DNA from: a virus
IMG/VR virus record: IMGVR_UViG_3300035670_001046
Coordinates: 1-27,547 of that record
Length of the DNA stretch: 27,547 bases
Direction: 5' to 3' (one strand)
Below the pieces are notes generated by a model. It was not told where the DNA came from and did not search any database. It was given only the letters and a program-made list of their open reading frames with translations. The position numbers were made by a program, and so were the translations under genes. Positions 2,835-27,403 of the stretch are shown here, in pieces (position 1 is the first letter of the stretch; each line of letters opens with the position of its first letter).

Positions 2835-3254
2835 TTACATAAACATAAAATTACCGTGAATTTTAAATCCTAGTTTTTTATAGAAATCTACTAGATTATT
2901 TTCACAACTTAATTTTATTCTATAACAGTCATTATTTTTTGCTAAATCTATACAATATTTAATAATAGTTGATGCGTATCCAGCATTTCTAAAGCTAGGA
3001 TGAGTACCAACATCCTCTATATGCATACATAAATTTTGATATCTTAACTTTTGTTCCATAATAACGGTAGCTGTTGATACTATCCTACTATCGTCGTTTA
3101 CCATAACAAAAGTTAGTATATTAGATGGTCTGTTCTCTAACACATATTTAATATCTTCTATTGAACTCAACTTAGTACAATGATTATTTAGATCTTTAAC
3201 ACAATCTATATAATCTTGTATATTATCCGTAGCTTCTAAAAGTTTAATATTCAT
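2835..3254 (-). CDS. GNAT acetyltransferase, GNA1-like (glucosamine-6-phosphate type)
   Basis: 139 aa. HIEDVGTHPSFRNAGYAST (residues ~78-96) is the GNAT motif A with the R-x-x-G-x-A acetyl-CoA loop, and DCYRIKLSCEN...FYKKLGF matches the end of the domain. HIEDV plus L/V-SCEN..FYKKLGF is the pattern of glucosamine-6-phosphate N-acetyltransferase (GNA1), which makes GlcNAc-6-phosphate for UDP-GlcNAc. The gene overlaps the fucose synthase stop by 4 nt (ATGA), so the two are co-translated, consistent with sugar-nucleotide work. It could also acetylate another amino sugar; family certain, substrate not. Confidence 0.8.
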   Translation of the reverse strand: MNIKLLEATDNIQDYIDCVKDLNNHCTKLSSIEDIKYVLENRPSNILTFVMVNDDSRIVSTATVIMEQKLRYQNLCMHIEDVGTHPSFRNAGYASTIIKYCIDLAKNNDCYRIKLSCENNLVDFYKKLGFKIHGNFMFM

Positions 3255-4168
3255 TTTTTATTAGCCCCGTACCACTCTATAGTTTCTTTTAATCCAGCAT
3301 CAAAACTTACCTTTGGTTCCCAATCTAATATCTTTTTGGCGCGTGACACGTCCAAAAATCTTCGTGGTTGACCATCTGGCTGATCACTATTCCAAGCTAT
3401 ATTTCCATCGTATCCAACAAGTGTTTTTATTTTTTCTGCTAAATCTTTTATTGTTATTTCAACACCACTGCCCAAATTAATAGGCTTAGTATCAGTATCC
3501 ACACTCAAGCTTTTTACTATAGCCTCAGCAGCATCATCCACATATAAAAATTCTCGTGTGGCACTTCCGCTTCCCCAACATTCTACCTCGGTATCGTTAT
3601 TTTGTTTTGCATCAATAAACCTTTTAATCAAAGCCGGAATAACATGACTACTACCAGGATCAAAATTATCATTTGGTCCGTATAAATTACAAGGAAGTAA
3701 TACGCAACCATTTAGATCATATTGATTTTTATAAGCTTCTATCATAACATAAAGAGCTTTTTTAGCTATTCCGTACGGAGCATTAGTTTCTTCAGGATAG
3801 CCGTCCCACAAACTATCTTCACTAAAAGGAACCGGAGTATATTTAGGATAACTACAAACCGTTCCTATCTGCACAACCTTTTGTACATCAAAAAATCTAC
3901 AATTTTCAATAACATTTAATCCCATCATCATGTTTTGATAAAAAAATGATCCTGGATTAACCCTATTCGCCCCTATTCCACCAACCACAGCAGCACAGTG
4001 TATCACAGCATCTGGCCGATATCTATCAAAAGCATCCTTAGTTTGTCTAGGATTACACAAATCAAAATTTCGTGATCCGAATGTTATACCATCATAACCT
4101 TGGTCTTTTAAAACTTTCATAATTTTAGACCCTAAAAATCCATTGCCACCAGTAACTAAAACTTTCAT
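3251..4168 (-). CDS. fcl: GDP-L-fucose synthase (3,5-epimerase/4-reductase)
   Basis: 305 aa, the usual length for this short-chain dehydrogenase. It converts GDP-4-keto-6-deoxy-mannose to GDP-L-fucose using NADPH. Visible are the Rossmann motif GGNGFLG (7-13), VVGGIGAN (61-68), YGIAK with Tyr132 and Lys136, and HVIPAL (His175, matching the catalytic His of the E. coli enzyme). By my alignment Cys105 is kept, while the E. coli Ser107 position is Thr103. Start: AAGGAAAAATAAT before the ATG. The partner GDP-mannose dehydratase is at 6144-7136 on the other strand. A terminator lies just upstream (4195-4222), so its promoter is unclear. Confidence 0.92.
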   Translation of the reverse strand: MKVLVTGGNGFLGSKIMKVLKDQGYDGITFGSRNFDLCNPRQTKDAFDRYRPDAVIHCAAVVGGIGANRVNPGSFFYQNMMMGLNVIENCRFFDVQKVVQIGTVCSYPKYTPVPFSEDSLWDGYPEETNAPYGIAKKALYVMIEAYKNQYDLNGCVLLPCNLYGPNDNFDPGSSHVIPALIKRFIDAKQNNDTEVECWGSGSATREFLYVDDAAEAIVKSLSVDTDTKPINLGSGVEITIKDLAEKIKTLVGYDGNIAWNSDQPDGQPRRFLDVSRAKKILDWEPKVSFDAGLKETIEWYGANKK

Positions 4169-4582: not shown

Positions 4583-4759
4583 ATGATTAATTTTGATTCT
4601 AATATTACCAATCTTACATCTTCGATCTTATCGGTCAAAGCATCAGGATCAATAATTGACCAAATTCAAAATGATCTTAATTTACCAGACGGAGACGACA
4701 TAACTACTCTATTAAATAATGAAGAAAAAAACAAATCAAACTATCAAAGCGGTGAGTGA
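4583..4759 (+). CDS. Hypothetical acidic protein, 58 aa
   Basis: The start at 4583 (MINFDSNITNLTSSILSV...) has AAGGGG 7 nt upstream. Ser/Asn-rich with an acidic, probably helical C-terminal half (DQIQNDLNLPDGDDITTLLN). The end overlaps the sigma-factor gene by 41 nt, so it may act as a translational lead gene. No family is recognised; an anti-sigma or co-factor role would be speculation from position alone. Confidence 0.7.
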   Translation: MINFDSNITNLTSSILSVKASGSIIDQIQNDLNLPDGDDITTLLNNEEKNKSNYQSGE

Positions 4760-5360
4760 CGACGAATTTTTAGCCGTTTTAGACAAAATTACTAAAAGAT
4801 TAGCTCACAAATTTAAATTCGGCTATCATAGCATAGAGGATATGAAACAACAAGCGGCCATATTCGCACTAGAAGGATTAAAAAATTATGATCATAAAAG
4901 GCCCCTTGAAAACTTTTTGTGGACTCATGTGCGAAATCGATTATTTAACTACAAGAGAAACAACTACCAAAGACCCGACAAGCCTTGCTTAACTTGTCCA
5001 TTATACGATGCTGCTTATAAAGTTTCTAACAATCAGTGCTCTAAATTTATTGACAAAAAGGAATGCGAACCATACGCTTCGTGGGCCAAACGAAATGATG
5101 CTAAAAAGAATATTGCTAAACCATCGTATTTTGAAGATCTCAATTTAGCATCATCGCCTAATGGTTCTCACGAACACAACGAGATAGTTAATTTTCTTGA
5201 CAAAAATATTCGCTCAGAACACAGAGAAAGTTATCTAAAACTAAAACACAATCAAAAAATTAACAAGTCCGATCTTAACAAGCTTAAAAAACATATTATG
5301 GAAATAATGGAGGAACACAATTGGAAAACAGCAGAATTCCCAAAAAACGAGGACAACTAA
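4719..5360 (+). CDS. Divergent phage RNA polymerase sigma factor (gp55-like)
   Basis: 213 aa. Residues ~18-80 match sigma-70 region 2: ITKRLAHKF, then SIEDMKQQAAIFALEGLKNYDHKRP and LENFLWTHVRNRLFNYKRN. A four-Cys insertion follows (Cys90, Cys93, Cys107, Cys116; PCLTCP...CSKF...KECEPY), a possible zinc site. A basic and acidic helical C-terminus replaces a normal region 4. Size and reduced region 4 recall T4 gp55, which reads -10-only late promoters. It would redirect host RNA polymerase to phage promoters; the ATGGTGTATA sites at 12703, 17694 and 25834 are candidates. Specific late function is inference; the sigma fold call is from motif reading. Confidence 0.75.
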   Translation: MKKKTNQTIKAVSDDEFLAVLDKITKRLAHKFKFGYHSIEDMKQQAAIFALEGLKNYDHKRPLENFLWTHVRNRLFNYKRNNYQRPDKPCLTCPLYDAAYKVSNNQCSKFIDKKECEPYASWAKRNDAKKNIAKPSYFEDLNLASSPNGSHEHNEIVNFLDKNIRSEHRESYLKLKHNQKINKSDLNKLKKHIMEIMEEHNWKTAEFPKNEDN

Positions 5361-6151
5361 GTTTAGATGAAGAAGCTTATATTCGTGAAAATGTTAATTT
5401 ATTAAGCATAGATGCTATAGCTTCTAATCTTAATCGTCACGAAGGACCAATTAAACGATATATTAATGAAAATAATTTACTAATTGATCCAGAAGACAAA
5501 GCGGCTTATGAAACTCTAAAAGATAAATTACATAGCAAAACCTTTTGGGTAGAAATTACACGTCAGTTTGATGCTGACAGCGGCGAACTCCAATACTTTG
5601 AAGATACCTGGGTTGGACTAATAAAACAGTTTAGAGAAGATGTTTTACCAGCAGAAGAGTTGCAAATTAAACAATTTATCACTATTGATATATTAATTAA
5701 TCGCAGCATGAAAGAACGAAAAAGACACATTAGCGAAACTGAAAAATTACAGAAGCTTGTGGACAAAGAGTATGAAAAAAGTGAGGATCAAAGAGATATA
5801 CCGAAACTGGCTAATCTCGAAACTCAATTGTCGTTTGCCCGCAACAGTATCGCTAATTACACTAATGAATATACCAAACTTCTTAACGAACAGCAAAAAA
5901 TTAGCAAGGATCTTAAAGCTACTAGGGAACAAAGAATAAAAAGAATAGAAGATGGCAAAAGCAGTTGGGTTGGTTTAATACGAATGCTAGAAGACGAAAT
6001 AGTAAGAGAAAAAGAAGGCAAAGAAATGGAAATTCTTGGCATGGCAGCAAACGGAGCCAAAGAAAGAATGCAACAATATCACACTTATCAAGACGAAACT
6101 GTGGACGTACCATTACTAACACCAGAATTTATGGAAAATCACAATGAATAA
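5321..6151 (+). CDS. HTH plus coiled-coil protein, 276 aa; small-terminase candidate
   Basis: It starts at TTG 5321 with a strong GGAGG 7 nt upstream, and overlaps the sigma gene by 40 nt. Residues ~12-54 form an HTH (SLDEEAYIRENVNLL, SIDAIASNLNRHEGPIKRYI) like that of the 4256-4492 protein. Residues ~125-235 are long charged helices of coiled-coil type (KERKRHISETEKLQKLVDKEY). HTH followed by a helical oligomerisation region is the build of phage small terminase subunits, which recognise packaging DNA, but the gene is 2.3 kb from the large subunit and could equally be a regulator. It overlaps gmd by 8 nt. Confidence 0.6.
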   Translation: MENSRIPKKRGQLSLDEEAYIRENVNLLSIDAIASNLNRHEGPIKRYINENNLLIDPEDKAAYETLKDKLHSKTFWVEITRQFDADSGELQYFEDTWVGLIKQFREDVLPAEELQIKQFITIDILINRSMKERKRHISETEKLQKLVDKEYEKSEDQRDIPKLANLETQLSFARNSIANYTNEYTKLLNEQQKISKDLKATREQRIKRIEDGKSSWVGLIRMLEDEIVREKEGKEMEILGMAANGAKERMQQYHTYQDETVDVPLLTPEFMENHNE

Positions 6152-7136
6152 AACAGCTATAATAACAGGCATTACTGGTCAAGATGGCAGCTATCTAGCC
6201 GAACTACTATTGGAAAAGGACTACAAAGTTGTTGGATTATATCGACGTAGTAGTTCGTACCATTTTGAAAGAATATCCAGCATAGTAGATCATCCTAATT
6301 TAACTCTTTTAGAATTTGATCTTACAGATCCTTCCGTAATACTATCCATATTAAAACAATACGAACCAGATGAATTCTATAACCTGGCCGCTATGAGTCA
6401 TGTGGGAACCAGTTTTCACCAGCCATCCACAACGTTTGATATTAATACCATGGGGGTTTTACATATTTTAGAGGGTATAAGAACCACATCATCTGCTACA
6501 AAATATTATCAAGCTAGCACTAGCGAAATGTTTGGTAAAAATTATAGCGTGGATAAAAACAATAACAAATATCAAGATGAAAATACTCCACTAATTCCAC
6601 AAAGTCCGTATGCTGTTAGCAAAGTTGCTAGTCACAATTTGGTACGCATATATCGTGATGCTTATAATATCTTTGCTACTAGCGGCATACTATTTAATCA
6701 TGAAAGTCCGCGTCGTGGTGAAAATTTTCTAACGCGAAAAGTTACCAAATATATTGGCCAATTAGTTAACAATAAAACATCAGACAATTTAAAACTGGGC
6801 AATCTTCAAGCTTATAGAGATTGGGGTCATGCTAAAGATTATGTATATGCTATGTATTTGATGCTACAGCAAGATGTTCCTGACGACTTTGTTGTTTGTA
6901 CCGGTCAAACTCATAGCGTATTAAATTTTGTTATCAAATCTTTTGAGAGTGTGGATCTAGACTACAAACAATATGTAGAAATTGATCCGTCATTATATCG
7001 ACCAGCAGAAGTTGACTATTTATGCGGCCGATCTCTTAAAGCTCAAAAAGTACTAGGATGGATTCCATCAACTTCTTTTGATGATTTAGTTAGCGAAATG
7101 ATACAAAGTGATATTAAAGTTTACGCTAATGTTTAG
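6144..7136 (+). CDS. gmd: GDP-mannose 4,6-dehydratase
   Basis: 330 aa, full length. It turns GDP-mannose into GDP-4-keto-6-deoxy-D-mannose, first step to GDP-L-fucose or GDP-rhamnose/perosamine. Motifs: GITGQDG (9-15, NADP Rossmann loop), GLYRRSS (31-37), NLAAMSHV (80-87), ASTSEMFG (124-131, catalytic Thr/Glu), SPYAVSK with Tyr156 and Lys160, NHESPRRG and RDWGHAKDYV. All key residues are present, so it is likely active. The second-step enzyme is at 3251-4168. It overlaps both neighbours by 8 nt, so it sits in a polycistron with sigma and nuclease genes. Confidence 0.95.
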   Translation: MNKTAIITGITGQDGSYLAELLLEKDYKVVGLYRRSSSYHFERISSIVDHPNLTLLEFDLTDPSVILSILKQYEPDEFYNLAAMSHVGTSFHQPSTTFDINTMGVLHILEGIRTTSSATKYYQASTSEMFGKNYSVDKNNNKYQDENTPLIPQSPYAVSKVASHNLVRIYRDAYNIFATSGILFNHESPRRGENFLTRKVTKYIGQLVNNKTSDNLKLGNLQAYRDWGHAKDYVYAMYLMLQQDVPDDFVVCTGQTHSVLNFVIKSFESVDLDYKQYVEIDPSLYRPAEVDYLCGRSLKAQKVLGWIPSTSFDDLVSEMIQSDIKVYANV

Positions 7137-7407
7137 AAATTATAACGATCCATTATACAAAACTTTTAGACAAGAGGTTAAAAAACGAGATCAATACAAA
7201 TGTCAATGGCCAGGATGTTTAGCATCCAAAAAATTACATGTTCATCATATCAAAAGATGGGTTGATAGCGTTGATTTGAGATATAATATAAATAACGGAA
7301 TCACTTTGTGTAAGTTTCATCACTCTCTTATAGAAGGAAACGAAAACGCATACGAAGCAGTTTTTAGCAAATTAATATCTGATAATAAAAAATCAAATGA
7401 TAAATAA
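7129..7407 (+). CDS. HNH endonuclease domain protein, 92 aa
   Basis: The start at 7129 (MFRNYNDPLYKTFRQEV...) overlaps the gmd stop by 8 nt. The HNH fold is seen as KRDQYKCQWPGC, then LHVHHIKRW, and NGITLCKFHHSLIEG: paired Cys metal ligands (CQWPGC and LCKFH), the catalytic HH pair, and a closing His. Free-standing HNH proteins beside terminase genes in phages often assist packaging or cleavage of DNA; others are homing enzymes. The frame overlaps the next gene (7397) by 11 nt, which favours an integrated operon role over a recent insertion. Confidence 0.82.
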   Translation: MFRNYNDPLYKTFRQEVKKRDQYKCQWPGCLASKKLHVHHIKRWVDSVDLRYNINNGITLCKFHHSLIEGNENAYEAVFSKLISDNKKSNDK

Positions 7408-7885
7408 TGAAGACTTTACGATCATAATAGATACCAGAGAGCAACAACCGTGGTCTTTTGAGGATTATGTTGTTGCTAATAAAAAATTAGATACTGGTGA
7501 TTATAGTATAGAAGGTCTTCAAGACGTTTTTGCTATAGAACGTAAAAAGAGTATAAATGAAATTGCTAACAATATTATCGAACCACGGTTCAAAGATGTT
7601 GTACATAGAATGAGCCAACTTAAATATTCATTTTTCCTATTAGAATTTAGCATGAATGATGTGTTAAACTATCCAGTAGGATCAAATCTACCAAAAAGAA
7701 TGTGGGATAAAGTTAGAATTACTCCAGCATTTATAATGAAGAATATATTAGATTGGCAGCTTAAATATGATATTAAAGTATTATTTTGTAATAATGCATC
7801 TAATGCAGAAAAAGTAGCAGAATATATTATTAAAAGGATTTATCTTATAAACAATAAACCAAAGGAGAACCAAAATGAAACTTGA
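7397..7885 (+). CDS. ERCC4/XPF-type nuclease, 162 aa
   Basis: FTIIIDTREQQPW (7-19), LDTGDYSIEG (31-40) and FAIERKKSINEI (45-56) are the nuclease core of the ERCC4 family, which cuts branched or flapped DNA. It is followed by RFKDVVHRMSQLKYSFFLLE. The usual ERKx3D motif reads ERKx3N here, so one acidic residue is replaced by Asn; the other acidic residues (IIDTRE, TGDY, IERK) are kept. It lacks the HhH tandem and helicase parts of cellular XPF, as in other phage versions. Probably DNA repair, recombination or debranching before packaging. It overlaps the next gene by 11 nt. Confidence 0.82.
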   Translation: MINNEDFTIIIDTREQQPWSFEDYVVANKKLDTGDYSIEGLQDVFAIERKKSINEIANNIIEPRFKDVVHRMSQLKYSFFLLEFSMNDVLNYPVGSNLPKRMWDKVRITPAFIMKNILDWQLKYDIKVLFCNNASNAEKVAEYIIKRIYLINNKPKENQNET

Positions 7886-8447
7886 AAATTCAGTTACCAT
7901 TTATCCACCACCATATACTGATCAAAATAATCAATTAATTAATCCACCACCATTAGTTATGGATTATTTAGATGTTACTTATCATGATAACCCAACCAAT
8001 AAAGTAGTATCAGCTACTGTTAGAAATATTCCTGGTTCATTCATTATTGCAAATGGTATCGATTATGAGAAGCTTGGCGATATTAGTAGATCCACGCTAG
8101 AACAACTATTATATGATAGTATTAAAGACGATACTGCGACCAAACTTAGAAGCAAATTTCCCAAAACCTTAGAAGAATTTCCTAATGGTCCAGGAACTAT
8201 ATTAACAAGTATGATAAGTAGTTTAGGAATAAAGAGCACTCCCAATTGTTCTTGTAGACGTCATGCTATAGAGATGAATGAAAAAGGACCAGACTGGTGT
8301 GAACAAAATTTACCAACCATACTAGGTTGGCTAAAAGAAGAAAGCTCAAAAAGAAATTTGCCATATATTGAGTCTGTAGCATCTATGATAGTAAAAAGAG
8401 CAATAAACACTTCAAAAAGATTAATGAAACAAACAAATAATGGTTGA
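7875..8447 (+). CDS. CxC...WCEQN protein, paralogue 2 (190 aa), next to terminase
   Basis: GGAGAACCAAA gives a good ribosome site. The N-terminus (YPPPYTDQNNQ, LDVTYHDNP) and the C-terminal NCSCRRHAIEMNEKGPDWC then LGWLKEESSKRNLPY are the same architecture as the 2234-2833 protein. Conserved Cys-x-Cys, His and Cys could bind a metal. It overlaps the large terminase start by 8 nt, so it is made with the packaging motor and is the better positional candidate for a packaging accessory or small-terminase role. No biochemical function is known to me. Confidence 0.85.
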   Translation: MKLENSVTIYPPPYTDQNNQLINPPPLVMDYLDVTYHDNPTNKVVSATVRNIPGSFIIANGIDYEKLGDISRSTLEQLLYDSIKDDTATKLRSKFPKTLEEFPNGPGTILTSMISSLGIKSTPNCSCRRHAIEMNEKGPDWCEQNLPTILGWLKEESSKRNLPYIESVASMIVKRAINTSKRLMKQTNNG

Positions 8448-14850: not shown

Positions 14851-15861
14851 ATGTCAGCCAAAACTGAAAAATTTCAACCAACTCCAGAACTTAGTGATTT
14901 ACTAAAGCGTTCTGGATCAGCTCAACGAGAGGTTGCTTTAGCAGCTAATGCCGAATTTGCAAAAGCCCTAGAACTACCTCTTCGTCAGGGCGTTCTTAAT
15001 GGTGATGTTCTTGATGGTATCTTTGAACCAATTCGTCTTGATCAAAGTGCCACACCAGAGTTTCCTCTTGATTTCTTAGCTCCTGGTACCGAGAAGGACT
15101 TTGTGGCCTACACAATTCCTAACCACGGTTATATTCCAGAGCGTCATGTTGAGGGTGATTATGTTATGGTTCCAACATATGATGTTGGTGCCAGCATTGA
15201 TTATCTCTTAAAGTATGCTCGCGATGCTCGTTGGGACGTTGTTGGTCGTGCTATGGAAGTGCTAGAAGCCTCATTTGTCAAGAAGATGAATGATGATGGC
15301 TGGCACACACTATTGGCCGCTGGTGTTGATCGCAACATTGTTGTTTATGATAGTGATGCCAACGCTAGTCAGTTTACCAAGCGTCTTGTTAGTTTGATGA
15401 AAACTGTTATGAGACGTAATGGTGGTGGTAACTCAACCTCCAATAATAGAGGTATGTTAACTGATCTTTATGTTTCTCCAGAAGCTATGGAAGATATCCG
15501 TAACTGGGGTGTTGATCAAGTTGACGAAGTTACTCGTAGAGAAATCTACACTGCTGCTGATGGTGCTCTTAATCGAGTGTTTGGTGTTAATCTTCATGAT
15601 CTAGATGAATTGGGTGTTGGTCAAGAATATCAACTATTCTATACATCAACTCTTGGTGCTAGTATGCCAGGAAGCGATACAGAAATTGTTGTGGGTCTTG
15701 ATCTTCGCAAGAACGACAGTTTCGTTATGCCAATTCGTCAAGAAGTTCAAATCTTCGAAGATGAAACACTACATCGTCAGAAACGAGCAGGTTTCTACGG
15801 CTGGGCCGAACTTGGCTTTGCTGTTCTAGATAATCGTAGAGTATTAATTGGCTCACTATAA
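14851..15861 (+). CDS. Major capsid protein, HK97-fold, 336 aa
   Basis: It follows the decoration gene with an ACGGAG site. The length and pattern fit HK97-like capsids without a long propeptide: N-terminal helix (LSDLLKRSGSAQREVALAAN), an E-loop-like region (EFPLDFLAPGTEKDFVAYT), spine-helix region (WDVVGRAMEVLEASFVKKM) and a C-terminal P-domain sheet (ETLHRQKRAGFYGWAELGF, VLDNRRVLIGSL). Codon use (many CGT, GGT, AAG, CTT) looks tuned for high output compared with the AT-biased tail genes. A strong terminator follows at 15888. It would be the main shell subunit. Confidence 0.9.
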   Translation: MSAKTEKFQPTPELSDLLKRSGSAQREVALAANAEFAKALELPLRQGVLNGDVLDGIFEPIRLDQSATPEFPLDFLAPGTEKDFVAYTIPNHGYIPERHVEGDYVMVPTYDVGASIDYLLKYARDARWDVVGRAMEVLEASFVKKMNDDGWHTLLAAGVDRNIVVYDSDANASQFTKRLVSLMKTVMRRNGGGNSTSNNRGMLTDLYVSPEAMEDIRNWGVDQVDEVTRREIYTAADGALNRVFGVNLHDLDELGVGQEYQLFYTSTLGASMPGSDTEIVVGLDLRKNDSFVMPIRQEVQIFEDETLHRQKRAGFYGWAELGFAVLDNRRVLIGSL

Positions 15862-15988: not shown

Positions 15989-17689
15989 ATGTTAGAAAAT
16001 ACAAAAACACTACAAAAATACGGATACTCAATAGAATCCCTTAGCTCCGGATCAAGCAAAAAGATAGTAGTAATTTGTGATTATTGTAATAATACATTTG
16101 ACAAATCTTACAAAGCCCGTAATCTTCAAAATAAAGAACTAGACAAAGATTGTTGTGTAAAATGTAAATTTAAGAAAAGAGAAGAGCTTAGTTTATTAAA
16201 GTATGGAGTTAAAAACTCGGCTCAAAGACAAGATGTAAAAGAAAAACTATCAGATTATAATATAGAAGAGCATAAAGAAAGTATTATGGATTTATTAGCT
16301 CAAAATTATAGCATAGTTTATATTAGTAAAAAACTAAATATTCCAAAAACCTCATTAACAAGATACCTAAATCTTCAAAATATCGATACTTATGGAGATT
16401 TACAAAAAAAGAAAGAAAAAACTTTTAAGGAAAAATATGGAGAAAATTATAAAGAACAATTTTTAGAGAAAAGAAAAAATACTAACTTAATTAAATATGG
16501 ACATGATAATCCGTTTGCTAATGATGATATTAAAAGTAAAATTGTAGAAAGTATGAGAATCAAATATGGTAAAGATCATCATATGCAAAGCAATGAAATG
16601 AAACAAAGAGTTAAAATTACTAACTTAAATAAATATGGATGTGAAAATGTTTCTCAGTCTCCAGAGATTCAGGATAAGATTAAAAATACTAATTTAGATA
16701 AATATGGATACTCTCATGCTACCAAACATCCTGATGTTAAAACCAAAATAGTAAACACTATGATAATTAATGGTAATGCCAGATTATTTGACGGTAAAGG
16801 AGCTTCTTTTTGGGCAGAAAAAACGGGCTATTGTTTGAGTAGATTTAATCAACTAATTAATCATTACGGATTCGACGTTGCTAAAAATATGTATAGAACA
16901 GACAGTTACTCAAGTTTAGAACTAAGATTTAAAAGCTTTTTAGATGAGAGTGAATTAAATTATAAGACTCATACTAGATTAAATATTAGTGATAAAACTT
17001 ATATTCCTGATTTTATAATAGATAATTTAATCATAGAAGTAGATGGACTATACTGGCATAGCGATAACTGTAGAGACGACGATTATCACATAAATAAAAA
17101 AATATCCTATGAAAATGCTAATTATGATAGTTTGTTTTTTAGAGAGGATGAAATTAGAGATAAATTTGAGATTGTTAAAAGCATGGTATTGAATAGACTG
17201 GGAAGATCAAATAAGATATTTGCAAGAAAGTGTGATTTAGATAAAATCAATGATAAAGAAGCTGACGTTTATTTTGAAACCAATCATTTAATGGGAAAGG
17301 GTCGTGGAACAACATATATTTTAAGTTTTAAAGACGATGTAGTAGCAGCTTTAAGACTCAAAAGAAATAAAAATAATGATTATGAAATTAGTCGATTTTG
17401 TAACAGTAAATTTTATAGCATAACTGGTGCTTTTAGTAAACTATTAAACTTCGCCATTAAAGATAAACAACCCGATACTATTATGACTTTTATAGACAAG
17501 AGATATGGTAGAGGTCATTATTTAAAAAATTTAGGTTTTGATTATATTCATATTTATCCTAGTTTCAGATGGACAGATGGATTCCAAACTTTTCACAGAC
17601 TAAAATTTTCCGGTAATAGTGGATACAACAACGATCTTTTTAAGATTTATGATTGTGGCCAAGCAAAATACCTATTAAAGCTAAAATAG
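15989..17689 (+). CDS. EDxHD/Vsr-like homing endonuclease (Hef-type), 566 aa
   Basis: Order: an N-terminal zinc-ribbon (Cys30, Cys33, Cys56, Cys59), an HTH (YSIVYISKKLNIPKTSLTRYL, ~107-127), then a repeat region with KYG motifs at ~149, 169, 192, 215 and 238 (20-23-residue units) that probably reads DNA. A Vsr-fold nuclease follows: SSLELRFKSFL (Glu311), YIPDFII (Asp341), IIEVDGLYWHSD (Glu350, His357, Asp359). A C-terminal domain (~400-566) shared with phage Hef-type enzymes closes it. AAGGAG site and own promoter at 15940; strong terminator before it. This is a selfish free-standing element inserted between the capsid and downstream structural genes. Codon use is highly AT-rich. Confidence 0.85.
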   Translation: MLENTKTLQKYGYSIESLSSGSSKKIVVICDYCNNTFDKSYKARNLQNKELDKDCCVKCKFKKREELSLLKYGVKNSAQRQDVKEKLSDYNIEEHKESIMDLLAQNYSIVYISKKLNIPKTSLTRYLNLQNIDTYGDLQKKKEKTFKEKYGENYKEQFLEKRKNTNLIKYGHDNPFANDDIKSKIVESMRIKYGKDHHMQSNEMKQRVKITNLNKYGCENVSQSPEIQDKIKNTNLDKYGYSHATKHPDVKTKIVNTMIINGNARLFDGKGASFWAEKTGYCLSRFNQLINHYGFDVAKNMYRTDSYSSLELRFKSFLDESELNYKTHTRLNISDKTYIPDFIIDNLIIEVDGLYWHSDNCRDDDYHINKKISYENANYDSLFFREDEIRDKFEIVKSMVLNRLGRSNKIFARKCDLDKINDKEADVYFETNHLMGKGRGTTYILSFKDDVVAALRLKRNKNNDYEISRFCNSKFYSITGAFSKLLNFAIKDKQPDTIMTFIDKRYGRGHYLKNLGFDYIHIYPSFRWTDGFQTFHRLKFSGNSGYNNDLFKIYDCGQAKYLLKLK

Positions 17690-17750: not shown

Positions 17751-18155
17751 ATGGCCGCATCAAAATACGATTTTAGTATAGAACAAGGAAGTTCTTTTAA
17801 GCTAAGTTTGGTTTATAAAGATGATAGTGGTAATCCTATTGATCTTACAAATTGGTGTGCTAGATTAATATGGAAAACTAATACTAATGTTACTCAAACT
17901 TTTAGCACAGAGAATATAGATTATAGTGTATATAAATTTAGTATAGAGCCGTTAATTGGTAAAATAACCCTTATGATACCGGCTGGTACAACCAATAGTT
18001 TTCTATTTAATGCTGCAAAATATGACTTGGAATTACAAAGTGATGATGACTTATATGTTGGTGGTGGTAAATATATTATACGATTAATATATGGCACAAT
18101 TAATATTGTTAAACGCTTTAGTCAATCATCTTCGTTATTGGAGTGCGAACCTTGA
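17751..18155 (+). CDS. BppU-like N-terminal-domain tail protein, 134 aa
   Basis: Residues ~6-115 read as a beta-sandwich: YDFSIEQGSSFKLSLVYKD, NPIDLTNWCARLIWKT, KITLMIPAGTT, AAKYDLELQSDD. The 26405-27403 protein begins with the same domain. The pattern resembles the N-terminal domain of baseplate upper proteins that anchor receptor-binding proteins to the tail. AAGGA site 7 nt before the ATG. Stop overlaps the next gene start by 4 nt (TTGA). The role as fibre anchor is inferred. Confidence 0.6.
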   Translation: MAASKYDFSIEQGSSFKLSLVYKDDSGNPIDLTNWCARLIWKTNTNVTQTFSTENIDYSVYKFSIEPLIGKITLMIPAGTTNSFLFNAAKYDLELQSDDDLYVGGGKYIIRLIYGTINIVKRFSQSSSLLECEP

Positions 18156-18414: not shown

Positions 18415-20025
18415 ATGGCAGTTCAAACACTACTTCAAGTTCGTAGAGGTACTACTAGCGAATGGATTAATGCTAATCCAACACTAAGTGCCGGTGAATG
18501 GGGCTTGGATACCTCTCTTAAAAAGTATAAAATAGGAGATGGATTAACAGCATGGAATAGTTTACCTTATGCTAGTATATTACCTAATAGTAGCGATCTA
18601 GTAGGAACTAGCGGTATCGGTATTAATTTTTCTGCCACAACAGGAACGCCCGTAACAGTTAGTGTTACTGGAATATTAGCTAGTCAGGTTCTTGATTTTT
18701 CTCAAGCTGTTGATAATGTTATTAATATAGAGAGTATTCAGGATATTGTTGCTAGTGGCGATCATTTAACCACAGGATTTTTAAGAAATGGTACGGGAAT
18801 AGTTATAAATTATGATGATAGTAGTAATTTTGTTAGTATTAATGTTAGCGGATACTCATTACTTAATCATACCCACTCTAGCTCTGATATAACGGATTTT
18901 AATGAAGCCACCCAAGACGCTATTGGAACTAATGCTGGATCAAGCGGATTTTTAAGAAATGGTAGCGGAGTAGCCTGGACTTATGACGATGGTGGCGATA
19001 CATTAACAATTGGTGTTACTGGCATTCCATCATCTTTAATTACAGATTTTGCTAGCGCAGTAAGCGATCAAGTAGATACAACTCTTGCTGCTGGTACTGG
19101 CGTTGTACTAAATTACGATAGTGGAACGGATACTTTAACAATTCATACTAGTGGATATTCATTATTAAATCATACTCATGTTTGGAGTAACATAACTGAT
19201 GCTAGTAGCATTGTTACTACTGGTGAATTAGCATATCTTTCTGGTGTTGTTGCTGGTACTGCTAGCCCCAATCGAGCTGTTGTATTAGATAGTAATAAAG
19301 ATATTAATGGAATTGGAAATATAACCACAACTGGTAATATTTCTATCGGCGGAAATCTTACTGTTCAAGGTACAACAACCACAGTAAATAGTACCACTGT
19401 TGATATTGGAGATAATATAATTCAAGTTAATGTATCTGGTGCTGAAACTCAAGGCGGTTTGCAAGTTTATGATCATGATAACACTATTGCTCGTAGTATA
19501 GTATGGGATATTAGTGATACTAGATGGGAATTTACTGGTGGTAATGTTTATACGTCTGGTGATTTTATTAGTGATAGTTTACAAGTAACATCCACAGACT
19601 TGGTTACTAATCTAAATGCTGATTTATTAGATGGAGAGCACGGTAGTTATTATCGAAATTTTGCTAGCTTAACAGGATTACCAGATCCAATTATTACTGG
19701 AACACTAACTGGAGATGTTACCGGAAGTAGTAGTGTAACATTAACAGATCTTGGTAATGGAACGCTAAGTATTAGCACAACATTATCTGATAATACTGTT
19801 ACTAGTGCTAAAATTGTTAATGGCACTATAGTAAATGAAGATATTAATGCTAGTGCAGCTATTGCTGTGACTAAATTAGCTAGTAGTGGAATAACTTTAG
19901 GTAGCACAAATATTAATCTTGGTCAAACTAGCAGTGTTATTGATGGATTAACAAGAATTAGTGGCGTTAGCGCTCTTAATCCAACTTATATATACTATGC
20001 TGTAATTGATGGTGGCTCGCCATAA
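18415..20025 (+). CDS. Tail fibre with Mtd-like N-terminal domain, 536 aa
   Basis: Residues ~5-50 (VRRGTTSEWINANPTLSAGEWG, KKYKIGDGLTAWNSLPYA) match the N-terminal domain found in Mtd and many fibres. Then come imperfect repeats ending in SGYSLLNHTH (twice) with intervening SSDITDFNEATQ, GSSGFLRNGSG and LNYDSGTDTLTIH units, and a trimeric fibre-like stretch GNISIGGNLTVQGTTTTVNST. Gly/Ser/Thr/Asn-rich, beta-helical or triple-stranded shaft expected. AGAGG site upstream. Part of the adsorption apparatus; the receptor is unknown. No variable-repeat or reverse transcriptase gene is seen. Confidence 0.8.
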   Translation: MAVQTLLQVRRGTTSEWINANPTLSAGEWGLDTSLKKYKIGDGLTAWNSLPYASILPNSSDLVGTSGIGINFSATTGTPVTVSVTGILASQVLDFSQAVDNVINIESIQDIVASGDHLTTGFLRNGTGIVINYDDSSNFVSINVSGYSLLNHTHSSSDITDFNEATQDAIGTNAGSSGFLRNGSGVAWTYDDGGDTLTIGVTGIPSSLITDFASAVSDQVDTTLAAGTGVVLNYDSGTDTLTIHTSGYSLLNHTHVWSNITDASSIVTTGELAYLSGVVAGTASPNRAVVLDSNKDINGIGNITTTGNISIGGNLTVQGTTTTVNSTTVDIGDNIIQVNVSGAETQGGLQVYDHDNTIARSIVWDISDTRWEFTGGNVYTSGDFISDSLQVTSTDLVTNLNADLLDGEHGSYYRNFASLTGLPDPIITGTLTGDVTGSSSVTLTDLGNGTLSISTTLSDNTVTSAKIVNGTIVNEDINASAAIAVTKLASSGITLGSTNINLGQTSSVIDGLTRISGVSALNPTYIYYAVIDGGSP

Positions 20026-20057
20026 TTTATAATACTGGTAGGTTTTGAGGATATTTT

Positions 20058-21713
20058 ATGCCAGTAAATGATTATATTCTATTCAGAAAAGGCTCCAGTA
20101 CAGAATGGAGTAGCGCTAATCCAGTATTAGCTAGCGGTGAACCAGGATTCGATATAACTAATAATATATTAAAAATTGGTGATGGAATTACAACTTGGTC
20201 ATTATTATCTCAAATATCCTCCTCAGATATCTATGTTTATGCTAAAAATACTACTGGTGGTCCACTAACTAAAGGACAAGCTGTTTATATTAGTGGTGCT
20301 CAGGGAGATCATCCTATATTAGCATTAGCTTCTGCCGCATCCGAAAGCTCTTCTAGTAAAACATTAGGATTACTAAAACAAAATTTAGATAATAATGAGT
20401 TTGGATATGTGGTTACGGAAGGCATACTAGGTGGATTAAATACAGACAGTGCCGGATCGGCCGGAGACACTGTTTGGCTTTCTCCGTCAACACCTGGCGG
20501 ATTAGTTTATGGATTATCTAATAAACCAAGTGCTCCTGATCATATGGTATTTATTGGTTATGTGTTAAGAAAAAATACTAATAATGGTACTATCTATGTT
20601 AAAGTACAAAATGGTTTTGAATTAGAAGAATTACATAATGTGGCTATTAGCGGAGTAACCAACGGACAATTTTTACAATATAATAGTGGTAGTGGGTTAT
20701 GGTTAGCTAGTAGTAGTGGTAATTTTACATCACTAAGCGTTAACAATACTGGAGTAAGTTTAAGTGGTCATGCTCATTTAAATACCGATATTACTAATTG
20801 GAATGAAGCTGTTGATGATAGAGTAAATGATTTATTGGTTGGAATTAGTGGAATTAATATTAGTTATAATGATAGCAGTAATATAATCAATATAGCGTAT
20901 ACTGGATCATCTGGTGGCGGCGGAGTAGTAATAAATAATTATTCTGATAATAGATTATTAACTAGTGATGGAACTAGTACCGGAATAGATACTGAAAGTG
21001 GATTAATATTTTTATCTAATGGAAATAAATTAGGAATTGGCACAACTGATCCTTACGGAAACTTAGGATTGAGTAATGGTTATTTTAATAGCACTGGCGA
21101 TTCTCAAAAAAGCTCGCTTACTGTTAGAAATAATACATCAAATAATAGTTCAACAACGCTATATACTGATGGAATTTCTGAAAAATTAGTATTACCAATT
21201 AGCGGTATTTGGAATTTTAATGTTAATTTGGCTTGCTTTAGTAGTACTAATGAAGGCGCTGCTGGTTGGAATTTTAGAGGGTGTATTAAAAGAAATAGTT
21301 CCACAACAGCTTTAATTGGATCAATTATAGAAGAAAATTTTATTGATAGTAGTCTTAATGGAGTAGCAGCAACAGTTGTAGCAAATACTGGAACACATAG
21401 TTTAGATATTAATGTTAATGGTTTAAATAGTAATAATATTCTTTGGACAGCAGGAGTAGATTTGGTTCAAACTCTTTTTAGAGGATCATCAGAGCCATCG
21501 ACTCCTACCCCAACGCCTTCTGTAACAGCTACACCGACTATAACTCCTACTATAACACCAACAGCCACAAATACAATAACACCAACAGTTACAACCAGTA
21601 TAACGAACACGCCCACAGTAACCAATACAACAACACGAACACCAACACCAACAGTTACTCCCACAACTACTCCACCATACATGGGTGGTCAAAAGTATAA
21701 CTTTATTCCATAA
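20058..21713 (+). CDS. Tail fibre/receptor protein with Mtd-like N-terminus and Thr-Pro tail, 551 aa
   Basis: N-terminal FRKGSSTEWSSANPVLASGEPG and ILKIGDGITTWSLL repeat the domain of the preceding fibre. Residues ~58-190 form a separate domain (YAKNTTGGPLTKGQAVYISG to NGTIYVKVQNG) common in fibre proteins. A mid-to-C-terminal beta-sandwich (~340-480) follows. The last ~70 residues are a TPTPTPSVTATPT-type Thr/Pro repeat ending GGQKYNFIP. The repeat is likely an extended, possibly glycosylated linker that presents the C-terminal tip. GAGG site upstream. Function in adsorption is inferred. Confidence 0.78.
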   Translation: MPVNDYILFRKGSSTEWSSANPVLASGEPGFDITNNILKIGDGITTWSLLSQISSSDIYVYAKNTTGGPLTKGQAVYISGAQGDHPILALASAASESSSSKTLGLLKQNLDNNEFGYVVTEGILGGLNTDSAGSAGDTVWLSPSTPGGLVYGLSNKPSAPDHMVFIGYVLRKNTNNGTIYVKVQNGFELEELHNVAISGVTNGQFLQYNSGSGLWLASSSGNFTSLSVNNTGVSLSGHAHLNTDITNWNEAVDDRVNDLLVGISGINISYNDSSNIINIAYTGSSGGGGVVINNYSDNRLLTSDGTSTGIDTESGLIFLSNGNKLGIGTTDPYGNLGLSNGYFNSTGDSQKSSLTVRNNTSNNSSTTLYTDGISEKLVLPISGIWNFNVNLACFSSTNEGAAGWNFRGCIKRNSSTTALIGSIIEENFIDSSLNGVAATVVANTGTHSLDINVNGLNSNNILWTAGVDLVQTLFRGSSEPSTPTPTPSVTATPTITPTITPTATNTITPTVTTSITNTPTVTNTTTRTPTPTVTPTTTPPYMGGQKYNFIP

Positions 21714-21724
21714 CAGAGATATTT

Positions 21725-24694
21725 ATGAGTATTAATTTTAATGATCATGATATTACTACTAGTGGAAATTTAACTGCTAATAGTGGAAATTTTACTAGTT
21801 TAAATATTAATAATAGTAATTTTAATAGTACTGTTAGTGGATTGCTTCCAACCATAGCTAATAGTGGAGATAATAGAGTTCTTACTAGCACAGGAAGCAC
21901 TGTTGGAATTAATGCTGAAAGTAATTTAACTTTTTCTGATTGTGTTTTAACCCTTGGTAGTACTGGTAATGAATCATCTTCAGTAATTCAACTGTACAAT
22001 AGTGATAGTGGAGATACTAATGTAAGTTTAAGATTATTTGATGCAAATAATAATTTAATGGTTTATATTGGTTCAGACGATGACTCCAACTCTAACGAGA
22101 TCACTAGTTTGTATTATCCATTAAATATTAATTCATCTGAAACTTTTACTCTATTCACTAGTAAGAATTTAGATATTTATGCTACAAGTGGAACCACATT
22201 AACTGGTGGAAATTTACGAATAGCTAATCAAACAGCTAGCACAATAGCTAGTTTTGATAGTAATAAAAATGTTACATCCTTAAGTACAGCAACCTATCCT
22301 AGTCTTACAGAATTAACTTATGTAAAAGGGGTAACAAGTGCAATCCAAACTCAGATTGACGACAAGAGTTCCTCGACTCATGTTCACGGCAATATAACAA
22401 ATGCTGGAGCCATAGGCTCTACGGCTAATTTGCCTTTGATTACAACCACAGGAGGCGCTATTACTGTTGGTTCATTCGGTACTGCTGCCAATACTTTTTG
22501 CCAAGGAAATGATAGTAGGCTTTCTGATAGTCGCACACCACTTAGTCATACCCACGGTAATATAACAAATGCTGGAGCAATTGGCTCAACAGCTAATTTA
22601 CCATTGATAACAACTACATCGGGAGCTATTACTGTTGGTTCATTCGGCACTGCTGCCAATACTTTTTGTCAAGGAAACGATAGTAGACTAAGTGATTCTC
22701 GCGCCCCAACAGGAGCCGCTGGCGGCGATTTAACTGGCACATATCCTAATCCTACACTAACTAATACTACGGTAGTTGCTGGAACATATAGAAGTGTTAC
22801 AGTAGATGCCAAGGGTAGAATTACTAGTGGAACTAATCCTACAACAATATCTGGTTATGGAATTACGGATGTTGGTAATGGAACACTCACTTTGAATGTT
22901 TCTGGAACCGGTTTGAGCGGATCAGCTTCTTTTACAGCTAATCAAAGCGGAAATACTACGTTTACGGTAACTTCTAATGCTACGAGCGCAAATACTGGTT
23001 CAACAATTGTGGCGCGTGATGCTTCTGGTAATTTTAGCGCCGGAACAATTACTGCTACGTTGAGCGGTAGTGCTTCAAATGCTACTCAATTAAATGGTAT
23101 AGCAGCAAGCAATTATTTTCGCGTCGATGGAACTTATCCAAATGCTGATATGAATGTTCCAGTAGAAGGTTATTGGCATGTAGCTTCGAATGCGGCAAAT
23201 ATGCCGGAGGCATCTTATGGTCATAGGTGGGACTACGATCACGCCGGTGATGGAAATTGGATTGCTCAATTTTATAGTCCAACTGGTGGAGATGCTGGTC
23301 TTTGGTTTCGTCAGAGAAGAAGTGGCACATGGCAAACATGGCGTAAATTCTTAGATAGTACAACATATAATTCTTACTCACCAACATTAACTGGAACCGG
23401 TGCTAGTGGAACATGGGGAATTAGTATATCTGGTGGATTAACAGGAACAAACATAAATCTTGGTTTTAGTCTTAGTACCGCAACAATATCTTATGGTGGA
23501 CATGCTGGTCCACAAATACAATCACAGGGCGGCGGAGCAGCAATGATGTCGTTTCATAGACCTGGTGCATACGCTGTGAATTTTGGATTAGATTCAGACA
23601 ATGTGTTAAAAGTTGGTGGATGGAGTATGGGAGCTAATGCATATCCTATATTACATAGTAATAATTATAATTCTTATGCACCTACTTTAACTGGTGGTAA
23701 TGCTAGTGGAACTTGGAGTATTAATGTCACAGGAACAGCGGCTGGTGAAACTTTAGCAACTGTTACTGGAAGAGGAGCAAGCACAACAACCAATATTACC
23801 ACTACTGGAGCAGTGTATGCTAATAATTGGTATCGGTCTTATGGAAATAGTGGATGGTTTAATGAAACATATGCTGGTGGAATATGGATGACAGATTCTA
23901 CATGGATTAGAATTTATAATAATAAACAATTTCTTGTTGATAATATTATACAGTCTGGAGCTAGTGTCAGAGCGCCAATATTTTATGATACTAACAATCT
24001 GGGATATTATTTAGATCCTGATAGTACCTCTAATCTCAATAGAGTAAATGCCATAGGATGGGATACAACTGGTAGAAATTATAGTAGAGAATGGATAGAA
24101 TTTACAAATCATAGCGGATTATATTCTCCATTAAATGGGGCACATTTTTATCCTAATAATGCTAGTTATGGAGCTTGGAGAGTAGTCGGAACAAGAAATG
24201 GCTGGGGTGGATTAGAATTTGATAGTACTGGTGCTGGTCAAATCAGTTTGATGATGAATTCTGGTCACACAGGAGTTCATAATAATACTTATGGTTGGCA
24301 GTGGTATTGGACAGGTGGTACGTTTTATGTGAGCAAAGGATCTTATGGTGGTAGTGAAGTTGCGGTTTTGGATTCTTCTAACTTCGCTTCTATCGCTCCT
24401 GTATCTAGTAGAACTTTTAGAGCATGGGGGGTTTATGACGGCACTGCCTCATCAGCAAATCCCGGTGACGGCATTAATATGGGAACAATGACAAGAAGTG
24501 GTACCGCAACTTACACCTGTAATTTTTCAATAACACTACCAAATGCGAATTATGGAGTATTAGTAAGTGGACAAGTAGGTAGTATGGTTACTCAAACTCG
24601 GACTACTACTAGTGTTGTTATAGTTGCTCAAAATTTGAATGGTACTCAAACCCAAGCTACTTATTTTACTTTAGGAATTATAGACACTGTTTAA
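21725..24694 (+). CDS. Large tail fibre, 989 aa
   Basis: Longest gene in the window. It starts directly after the previous stop with an AGAG site. The N-terminal region is Asn/Ser/Thr-rich. Residues ~221-326 are two 56-aa tandem repeats starting HGNITNAGAIGSTANLPLI. A GGDLTGTYPNPTL and VDAKGRIT pair follow, typical of phage and phage-like fibre repeats. Residues ~470-545 (HRWDYDHAGDGNWIAQFYS, RSGTWQTWRKFLDS) match long-tail-fibre modules. The C-terminal ~100 residues (RAWGVYDGT... to IDTV) form a compact tip of a kind common in such fibres. Probably the distal receptor-binding fibre. Confidence 0.82.
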   Translation: MSINFNDHDITTSGNLTANSGNFTSLNINNSNFNSTVSGLLPTIANSGDNRVLTSTGSTVGINAESNLTFSDCVLTLGSTGNESSSVIQLYNSDSGDTNVSLRLFDANNNLMVYIGSDDDSNSNEITSLYYPLNINSSETFTLFTSKNLDIYATSGTTLTGGNLRIANQTASTIASFDSNKNVTSLSTATYPSLTELTYVKGVTSAIQTQIDDKSSSTHVHGNITNAGAIGSTANLPLITTTGGAITVGSFGTAANTFCQGNDSRLSDSRTPLSHTHGNITNAGAIGSTANLPLITTTSGAITVGSFGTAANTFCQGNDSRLSDSRAPTGAAGGDLTGTYPNPTLTNTTVVAGTYRSVTVDAKGRITSGTNPTTISGYGITDVGNGTLTLNVSGTGLSGSASFTANQSGNTTFTVTSNATSANTGSTIVARDASGNFSAGTITATLSGSASNATQLNGIAASNYFRVDGTYPNADMNVPVEGYWHVASNAANMPEASYGHRWDYDHAGDGNWIAQFYSPTGGDAGLWFRQRRSGTWQTWRKFLDSTTYNSYSPTLTGTGASGTWGISISGGLTGTNINLGFSLSTATISYGGHAGPQIQSQGGGAAMMSFHRPGAYAVNFGLDSDNVLKVGGWSMGANAYPILHSNNYNSYAPTLTGGNASGTWSINVTGTAAGETLATVTGRGASTTTNITTTGAVYANNWYRSYGNSGWFNETYAGGIWMTDSTWIRIYNNKQFLVDNIIQSGASVRAPIFYDTNNLGYYLDPDSTSNLNRVNAIGWDTTGRNYSREWIEFTNHSGLYSPLNGAHFYPNNASYGAWRVVGTRNGWGGLEFDSTGAGQISLMMNSGHTGVHNNTYGWQWYWTGGTFYVSKGSYGGSEVAVLDSSNFASIAPVSSRTFRAWGVYDGTASSANPGDGINMGTMTRSGTATYTCNFSITLPNANYGVLVSGQVGSMVTQTRTTTSVVIVAQNLNGTQTQATYFTLGIIDTV
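22385..22702 (+). repeat. In-frame tandem repeat in the 989-aa fibre (168-bp unit)
   Basis: Unit 1 at 22385-22552, unit 2 from 22553 (nearly complete, to 22702). They share almost all codons' amino acids with scattered synonymous changes, one Gly-to-Ser among substitutions. A 168-bp unit keeps the frame, so copies can be added or lost by recombination, changing fibre length. Confidence 0.9.
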
Positions 24695-25873: not shown

Positions 25874-26392
25874 ATGAGCTGGCAACTAGAAATACCAATT
25901 ATAGTTCGTAGTTTAATTAATGATCTTAGTGATAATCCAACATATAGTGACGAAAGAATCCAGCAACTAATAGTTGTAGCGGCTCAATACGTTACGAGAG
26001 AAGTTAATTTAAATAACGAATATAGTATTAATATTATCAATCCTGATATAATTCCTGATCCTACTCTTTTAGAAAATAAAGATGTGGATTTTATTAGTTT
26101 TGTTGCATTAAAATCGTCTTGCTTTCTAGATCAAAGTAGTTTACGCACACGGGCCGCTACAGAGGGCATTAGGGCCGCATTGGGACCAGCTAATATTAGT
26201 GTTGGTGGCAATAGCTCTTATCAATTTCTTTTAGCTAATGGTCCTTGTAAAATGTATGAGGACCTAAAACTTGATTATGAAATTGGTAATACTACCTTGC
26301 TACGAGGTATTCTTAGTCCGTTTGTTGGTAATAATTTTGATCCGAGTTATTTACGATATCCTGGCGATCATGCTAGAGACCTTTATAGTTAA
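25874..26392 (+). CDS. Head-tail adaptor (gp6-like) candidate, 172 aa
   Basis: AGGGG site. N-terminal helices with IIVRSLINDLSDNPTYSDERI and IVVAAQYVTREV, then YSINIINPDIIPDPT and FISFVALKSSCFL, are the pattern of head-completion adaptor proteins that sit under the portal (head-tail connector, HK97 gp6-type). A C-terminal region (~120-172) is less clear. Finding it after the fibre genes rather than after the capsid gene suggests the module order was rearranged, with an endonuclease and fibres inserted between. Assignment rests on pattern only. Confidence 0.6.
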   Translation: MSWQLEIPIIVRSLINDLSDNPTYSDERIQQLIVVAAQYVTREVNLNNEYSINIINPDIIPDPTLLENKDVDFISFVALKSSCFLDQSSLRTRAATEGIRAALGPANISVGGNSSYQFLLANGPCKMYEDLKLDYEIGNTTLLRGILSPFVGNNFDPSYLRYPGDHARDLYS

Positions 26393-26404: not shown

Positions 26405-27403
26405 ATGGTAGCTGTTAATTATAATTTTCCAATAGAAAAAGGATCTGATTTTCAGATTAATTTTGTATATAATAACAGTTCCGGCGACCCGATAAATCTT
26501 AGTAATAAGTGTGTCGAATTTGGCATACTAGGCGACGACGGATCTATTAGAAAATATTCTAGTCAAGCATTAGCTAATTATGATGTTGATGGATGGAGCA
26601 TAACAGGAGATAATCTCGGAACTATAGTAATAAAATTTAGTGCGGATCATACAAAATCTTTTAATTTTTTAACAGCAGTTTACGATCTTGATGTTAAAAA
26701 TGTCGGAACCATTAAACTTAATAATGTTAGATTGTCTCAAGGAAGTATCAATCTAATAGATAGAAATTTAACTATTGATCCTAATTGTGCAATTAGTTTG
26801 GATCCTTTGGTTGTACAAACAACCAATTTACCAACAACCACAGGCAGCAATATACCAACACCAACACCAACTGTTACAGAAGAAACAGATTTTTGCTTAC
26901 CATATGATTGTGGTCCACTAGATCTATTTTCTGTAGTTTATAATGGCAGTGGTTTAACTATTAATGATTTGTCTACAACAAGCGGTTCTGTTAATGTTAC
27001 GAATACAGGAATCATATCTAATATAGAACTGGCTATTAACAAACTAAATCACTCCAACGTAACAGACTTGGTTTTGTTGTTGTCTCCACCAAGCGGAGAT
27101 AAAATACTACTATCTGCTAATCACAAAATACCGAATTATTCCAATAATTTTAGTTTTATGTTTAGTAACAAAGCTGATAGTAATAAATATTTACATAATA
27201 TATCTAATGGTCAAACTTGTAGAATTTATGATAAAACATCCATTGTTAATTATAATAATGAATCTCTAAATAGTAATTTTGATCATTTATTTAATAGTTC
27301 TGTAACCGGTGTATGGAATCTTATTATAAAAGATACTGATCCAACTAGTAGTGGAAATATTGATTCTTGGAAACTAGTTATAACATATGATAGTAATATT
27401 TAA
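26405..27403 (+). CDS. BppU-like domain + Thr/Pro linker + P-domain protein, 332 aa
   Basis: Residues ~6-130 (YNFPIEKGSDFQINFVYNN, GDPINLSNKCVEFGIL) repeat the domain of the 17751-18155 protein. A PTPTPTVTEE linker with flanking Thr/Asn follows (~140-165). Residues ~175-332 read as a P-domain (Homo B, as after subtilisin-like proteases): IISNIELAINKLNHSNVTDLV, LLLSPPSGDKILL, TGVWNLIIKDTDPT and GNIDSWKLVITYD. In cells P-domains stabilise or bind; here a tail-anchored P-domain could bind the host surface. The ribosome site is weak (GGAA). The domain calls are by eye. Confidence 0.65.
   Translation: MVAVNYNFPIEKGSDFQINFVYNNSSGDPINLSNKCVEFGILGDDGSIRKYSSQALANYDVDGWSITGDNLGTIVIKFSADHTKSFNFLTAVYDLDVKNVGTIKLNNVRLSQGSINLIDRNLTIDPNCAISLDPLVVQTTNLPTTTGSNIPTPTPTVTEETDFCLPYDCGPLDLFSVVYNGSGLTINDLSTTSGSVNVTNTGIISNIELAINKLNHSNVTDLVLLLSPPSGDKILLSANHKIPNYSNNFSFMFSNKADSNKYLHNISNGQTCRIYDKTSIVNYNNESLNSNFDHLFNSSVTGVWNLIIKDTDPTSSGNIDSWKLVITYDSNI

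Follow-up and report, generated by a model that had tools for sequence, protein, structure and literature searches.

The 332-aa protein encoded close to the end of the window (the whole stretch of DNA analysed, a 27.5-kb IMG/VR record of 27,547 nucleotides) may well form an appendage that some virions carry at the head-tail (neck or collar) region, with a weak and generic surface-binding function. We hold this reading with about even confidence, from domain families, predicted folds, the gene slot and its alternative occupants, the pattern of conservation and analogy with known phage appendages. The N-terminal domain, a beta-sandwich anchor of the LtfC/phrog_1084 kind, would dock copies of the protein around the neck by making or entering a ring where head and tail meet, comparable to that of LtfC at the tip of the T5 tail. 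Each copy would display one P-domain on a flexible Thr/Pro linker, and this domain would act as a non-catalytic binding head, weak but multivalent, for a common host-surface or environmental glycan or protein. The closest working precedent is the lactococcal neck passage structure (NPS), with its carbohydrate-binding heads on the neck, and an auxiliary surface-binding role is our best guess.

The gene is an intact open reading frame with an ATG start. The ORF, the Pfam match to PF01483 and the position of the linker agreed with the preliminary description of one 332-aa protein made of an N-terminal domain, a Thr/Pro linker and a P-domain (Table 1). The AlphaFold2 model of the whole protein had a mean pLDDT of 67, with values of about 72-89 across most core strands, and the linker was disordered (pLDDT 28-33 at residues 131-170). 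Foldseek matches of the full-length model to antibodies and T-cell receptors were rejected as composite two-Ig artefacts, and searches of PDB sequences with the protein, by phmmer and by profile, gave chance matches only.

Table 1 Position of the P gene, its domains and the neighbouring features in the window.
Feature	Position	Strand	Basis
Two-domain gene: anchor, Thr/Pro linker and P-domain	26405..27403	+	ORF; PF01483; phrog_1084; recurs in viral contigs
Anchor domain, residues 1-122, predicted Ig-like beta-sandwich of phrog_1084/LtfC kind	26405..26770	+	phrog_1084 match; AlphaFold2; Foldseek; hhalign
Thr/Pro-rich linker, residues 129-161	26789..26887	+	Translation; low pLDDT; variable in relatives
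P-domain, residues 164-328, furin-type motifs	26894..27388	+	PF01483; Foldseek to furin/Kex2; conserved residues in 28 relatives
Free anchor paralogue, 134 aa, ahead of Mtd_N fibre cassette	17751..18155	+	phrog_1084 E 9e-13; search of own record
Major capsid protein	14851..15861	+	phrog_2522 E 0.0027 (weak); conserved order after portal, protease and decoration-like genes
Fibre cassette of two Mtd_N fibre genes plus one fibre-like gene (989 aa)	18415..24694	+	PF18454 Mtd_N in 18415 and 20058; tail-fibre and tail-protein PHROGs
172-aa gene just upstream of the anchor-P-domain gene, putative head-tail connector	25874..26392	+	Position only

Residues 213-325 matched Pfam PF01483 (E 1.9e-9, 37.9 bits; the curated cut-off is 21 bits), and alignment of relatives gave full domain bounds of about 164-328. 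The same family was matched by 23 of 26 relatives at E <= 0.01. In Foldseek searches the P-domain model superposed on furin and Kex2 P-domains with an rmsd of 2.6-3.3 Å over about 165 columns, at 11-14% identity for the best chains (2.6 Å for furin). Both furin-type motifs were found, H....DL...L.PP.G around H216-G231 and W.L...D.D....G.I..W.L at the tail, and residues H216, D221, L236, K241, K277 and G302 were invariant or nearly so in 28 relatives. The profile match and the model indicate that residues 164-328 are a true P-domain, with a predicted jelly-roll fold as in furin and Kex2; the P-domain fold that had been suggested for residues 175-332 was thereby borne out.

P-domains classically adjoin subtilases (the Pfam family), and their known role in convertases is a stabilising one. 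The P-domains of furin, Kex2 and Aeromonas ASP (P_proprotein, PF01483) share with the phage domain the HMM match, the fold and both motifs, but the phage protein has no protease domain and its P-domain is fused to a phage anchor. Every Foldseek match of the P-domain model lay within a protease and, together with the classical association with subtilases, this could mean that the protein assists a protease in trans or serves as a processing signal. We consider such a role extremely improbable, given that each phage record held one P-domain gene, fused to the anchor every time and never in a protease frame (open frames of about 333-350 aa). On one contig (L066, the same contig as L007), the P protein was extended at its C-terminus within a frame of 773 aa, and L115 and L116 had a weak, shortened P-domain within a 475-aa protein. 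Our literature search found no binding function for a P-domain without a protease and no paper on phage P-domains. A viral structure library lists a 612-aa uncultured-phage entry as 'Proprotein convertase, P', so a phage P-domain had been annotated earlier.

Residues 3-115 of the anchor matched phrog_1084 (E 2.9e-9), as did the anchors of 26 out of 26 relatives, and this was the only firm family match. The family phrog_3304, 'L-shaped tail fiber protein assembly', was matched by 4 of the 26 relatives (best 3.7e-6) and not by the window protein, and Pfam LtfC gave weak, below-cut-off matches in three members (best E 5e-3). By hhalign, the anchor aligned with 97-98% probability to Circinus gp27 and to a protein of Acidovorax phage ACP17, each of which falls just under the Pfam LtfC cut-off. 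The preliminary description had called the domain BppU-like, a name that suits its fold but not its sequence family. Pfam BppU_N (PF10651) was matched neither by the window protein nor by 14 anchor sequences at E <= 10, in searches where the controls TP901-1 BppU and NPS both matched, and hhalign gave probabilities of 0.1% to TP901-1 BppU and 25% to NPS. Folded alone, the anchor had an AlphaFold2 pLDDT of 86. Foldseek of this model in the PDB matched chains from the baseplates of NF5 and Douge and one from the P74-26 neck, alongside numerous generic Ig folds; since the matches include baseplate and neck chains, the fold alone cannot place the anchor in the virion. Profile comparisons place it in phrog_1084 and, less firmly, near LtfC, with a predicted BppU-like fold. 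DT57C LtfC/T5 p132 is a 12-copy collar to which the lateral fibres are attached at the tail tip; DALI has linked the fold of this collar protein to BppU-N (PMC10038345, PMC10713586).

Position and domain families make up the whole of the functional signal, and the product could accordingly be a secreted or regulatory non-virion protein located by chance in a morphogenetic operon. This is very doubtful, as T5 has a structural member of the anchor family (p132/LtfC) and free anchor paralogues head fibre cassettes in the same genomes. The paralogue in the window, a relative of Circinus gp27, was 34% identical to the anchor domain of the P protein, and a second anchor domain was present in 13 of 16 long records.

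The window holds a phage head module with terminase, portal and a weakly matching capsid gene, followed by Mtd_N fibre genes. A homing endonuclease gene lies directly 3' of the capsid gene (15989-17689); it is present in L006 and L040 and absent in L008 and L118. Further upstream, an NAD-dependent epimerase/GDP-fucose-synthase-like gene (3251-4168, minus strand) and a GDP-mannose 4,6-dehydratase gene (6144-7136, plus strand) likely give the phage a pathway to GDP-fucose or a related sugar. The product of 4719-5360, a possible phage sigma factor, matches sigma-70 region 2 weakly and contains a cluster of cysteines. An ERCC4-type nuclease domain is encoded at 7397-7885, and two similar proteins, apparently paralogous and each having a PPPY motif close to its start, are encoded at 2234-2833 (199 aa) and 7875-8447 (190 aa).

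A search with the P protein found the same two-domain gene in about 20 or more uncultured phage contigs. The combination had been called uncommon, which is true of cultured phages (no tblastn match to the whole 332-aa protein in 50,697 phage records) but not of uncultured aquatic phages, in which it recurs. The 172-aa gene was directly upstream in 20 of the 21 sequences examined. The exception was the degraded L032, where the P gene is broken after 45 codons and the adjoining p177 and p218 frames are split too; this contig may contain sequencing errors. In L008, L118, L126 and L135 the 172-aa gene is directly 3' of the capsid gene. The full order in the last three is portal, protease, decoration, MCP, 172-aa gene, P protein, 177-aa gene, 218-aa gene, 308-aa gene and tail tube-like gene, and L008 has the same order apart from small ORFs. 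Distal-tail genes lie more than 20 kb downstream of the P gene, beyond a very large 4,746-aa gene that we took, by size and position, to be the tape measure. The 172-, 177- and 218-aa neighbours gave nothing significant with PHROG and PDB profiles, nor did hhalign of the 172- and 177-aa proteins to Circinus, Stahl and MaeS genes. Gene order is the source of the labels 'connector' and 'tail tube', since no profile matched the genes so labelled, and it is also the source of the neck assignment, the 172- and 177-aa neighbours having no HMM match to known neck proteins. The tail-tube-like gene occurred in two or three tandem copies in L008, L009 and L095.

The 172-aa gene was chosen as bait to avoid selecting on the P-domain; it gave 240 relatives, of which 80 were kept, with 63 distinct next genes. 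The next gene encoded an anchor with a P-domain in 28 of the 63, and a free anchor in 12, most intact loci then having a fibre of ~1,850 aa. The zinc-motif 177-aa gene followed at once in 17, and the other six were the 177-aa gene with an insertion (three) or other fibre-like genes (three). The slot was thus without an extra gene in 20/63 (17 and the three with an insertion). Linkers of ~100 residues were seen in L068, L072 and L076, and pentapeptide repeats were matched in three relatives, probably these same ones. Host assignment through capsid relatives in genome bins was abandoned; the five bins had conflicting taxa (Alphaproteobacteria, two Flavobacteriales, Chitinophagia and SAR202) and likely contain mis-binned phage contigs.

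Three known systems resemble this arrangement. Lactococcal NPS is a collar with a BppU-N fold and carbohydrate-binding tips; the tips bind host cells weakly and are not essential (PMC6669499). In the lactococcal 936 phage LP1502b the NPS gene lies between the capsid and major tail protein genes, matching the slot of the P gene; in TP901-1 it adjoins the baseplate genes, so gene order does not always tell the location in the virion. The P protein has in common with NPS of 936 phages and TP901-1 a predicted N-terminal beta-sandwich anchor of BppU-like fold, its optional presence and C-terminal binding domains (predicted here), and with NPS of the 936 phage a gene between capsid or head-completion genes and the major tail protein or tail tube. 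NPS proteins, of 500-900 aa, match Pfam BppU_N in sequence and carry carbohydrate-binding tips on a long coiled coil that is trimeric, whereas the P protein has a phrog_1084/LtfC-like anchor, a short disordered Thr/Pro-rich linker and a P-domain head in 332 aa. T5 p132/DT57C LtfC is likewise a small Ig-like/BppU-N-like protein of a fibre-anchoring family, phrog_3304 being matched by 4 of 26 relatives. Unlike the P protein, in which the anchor is fused in cis to the P-domain and encoded at the head-tail junction, LtfC is not fused to another domain and holds a separate fibre at the tail tip. In the Streptomyces phage Circinus, the LtfC-like anchor homologue gp27 is encoded between the MCP and the annotated head-to-tail adaptor, and the next gene product, gp28, has lectin-like and CBM-like matches below Pfam cut-offs. 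There, anchor and binding protein are separate genes, without a P-domain.

Identity of relatives to the window protein, near-identical copies aside, was 60-83% in the P-domain, 39-64% in the anchor and 21-44% in the linker, and when 28 diverse relatives were compared in pairs, the P-domains resembled each other more closely than the anchors did in 275 of 377. The dN/dS values were 0.07-0.22 for the whole gene, 0.07-0.20 for the P-domain where any amino-acid change was seen, and at most 0.28 for the anchor. These comparisons indicate that the P-domain is usually more conserved than the anchor and under purifying selection. As the two-domain gene recurs in more than 20 contigs with such whole-gene values, the combination is not due to chance. 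One contig (L004) had a near-identical P protein, yet its fibre-like genes were only 64-77% identical. The P-domain is usually conserved where the fibre genes around it vary, a pattern that speaks against a head of variable receptor specificity.

The same data did not support the earlier suggestion of a new receptor-binding head on a baseplate stem. In such a tail-tip or baseplate protein the anchor would ring the distal tail and the P-domain would be a host-range head; the anchor fold is indeed known at tail tips (T5 p132, TP901-1 BppU, and the Foldseek matches in NF5 and Douge baseplates), and the TP901-1 NPS gene makes gene order indecisive. We nevertheless judge this unlikely, as the P gene lies in the capsid-to-tail-tube interval apart from the distal-tail genes, is absent from many relatives and encodes a head better conserved than its anchor. 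A head that is conserved under purifying selection, yet optional in otherwise similar phages, is easier to explain by auxiliary binding to a common ligand than by a part in host range, but a structural cement would explain it too. As a cement or decoration of capsid or neck, the P-domain would stabilise the particle as it does the furin protease, without an outside ligand. High conservation, low dN/dS, the adjoining head-completion genes and the stabilising role in convertases are all in agreement with this, but the flexible and highly variable interdomain linker, longer or with pentapeptide repeats in some relatives, suits display better, and in other members the slot has a fibre cassette instead or no extra gene. 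A purely structural role therefore appears rather improbable, and we retain the surface-binding neck appendage as the preferred reading.

Both halves of the protein, anchor and P-domain, were already known; what is new is that they recur together in one putative neck slot, that an anchor plus fibre can take their place there, and that the linkers are varied, some with pentapeptide repeats. We tentatively propose that a large group of uncultured aquatic phages possesses one exchangeable neck slot, which would hold an LtfC-type collar with a P-domain in cis, one with a giant fibre in trans, or nothing, and that the P-domain would be a protease-free class of phage adhesive head binding a widely shared surface ligand. 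If this is true, the P-domain, known mainly as a stabiliser of furin-like proteases, would gain a second role, that of a phage surface module in its own right. The swapping of a cis head and a trans fibre in one neck slot would make the evolution of phage appendages easy to test, and the model would account for a gene without an assigned function that recurs in many uncultured phages of fresh and marine waters.
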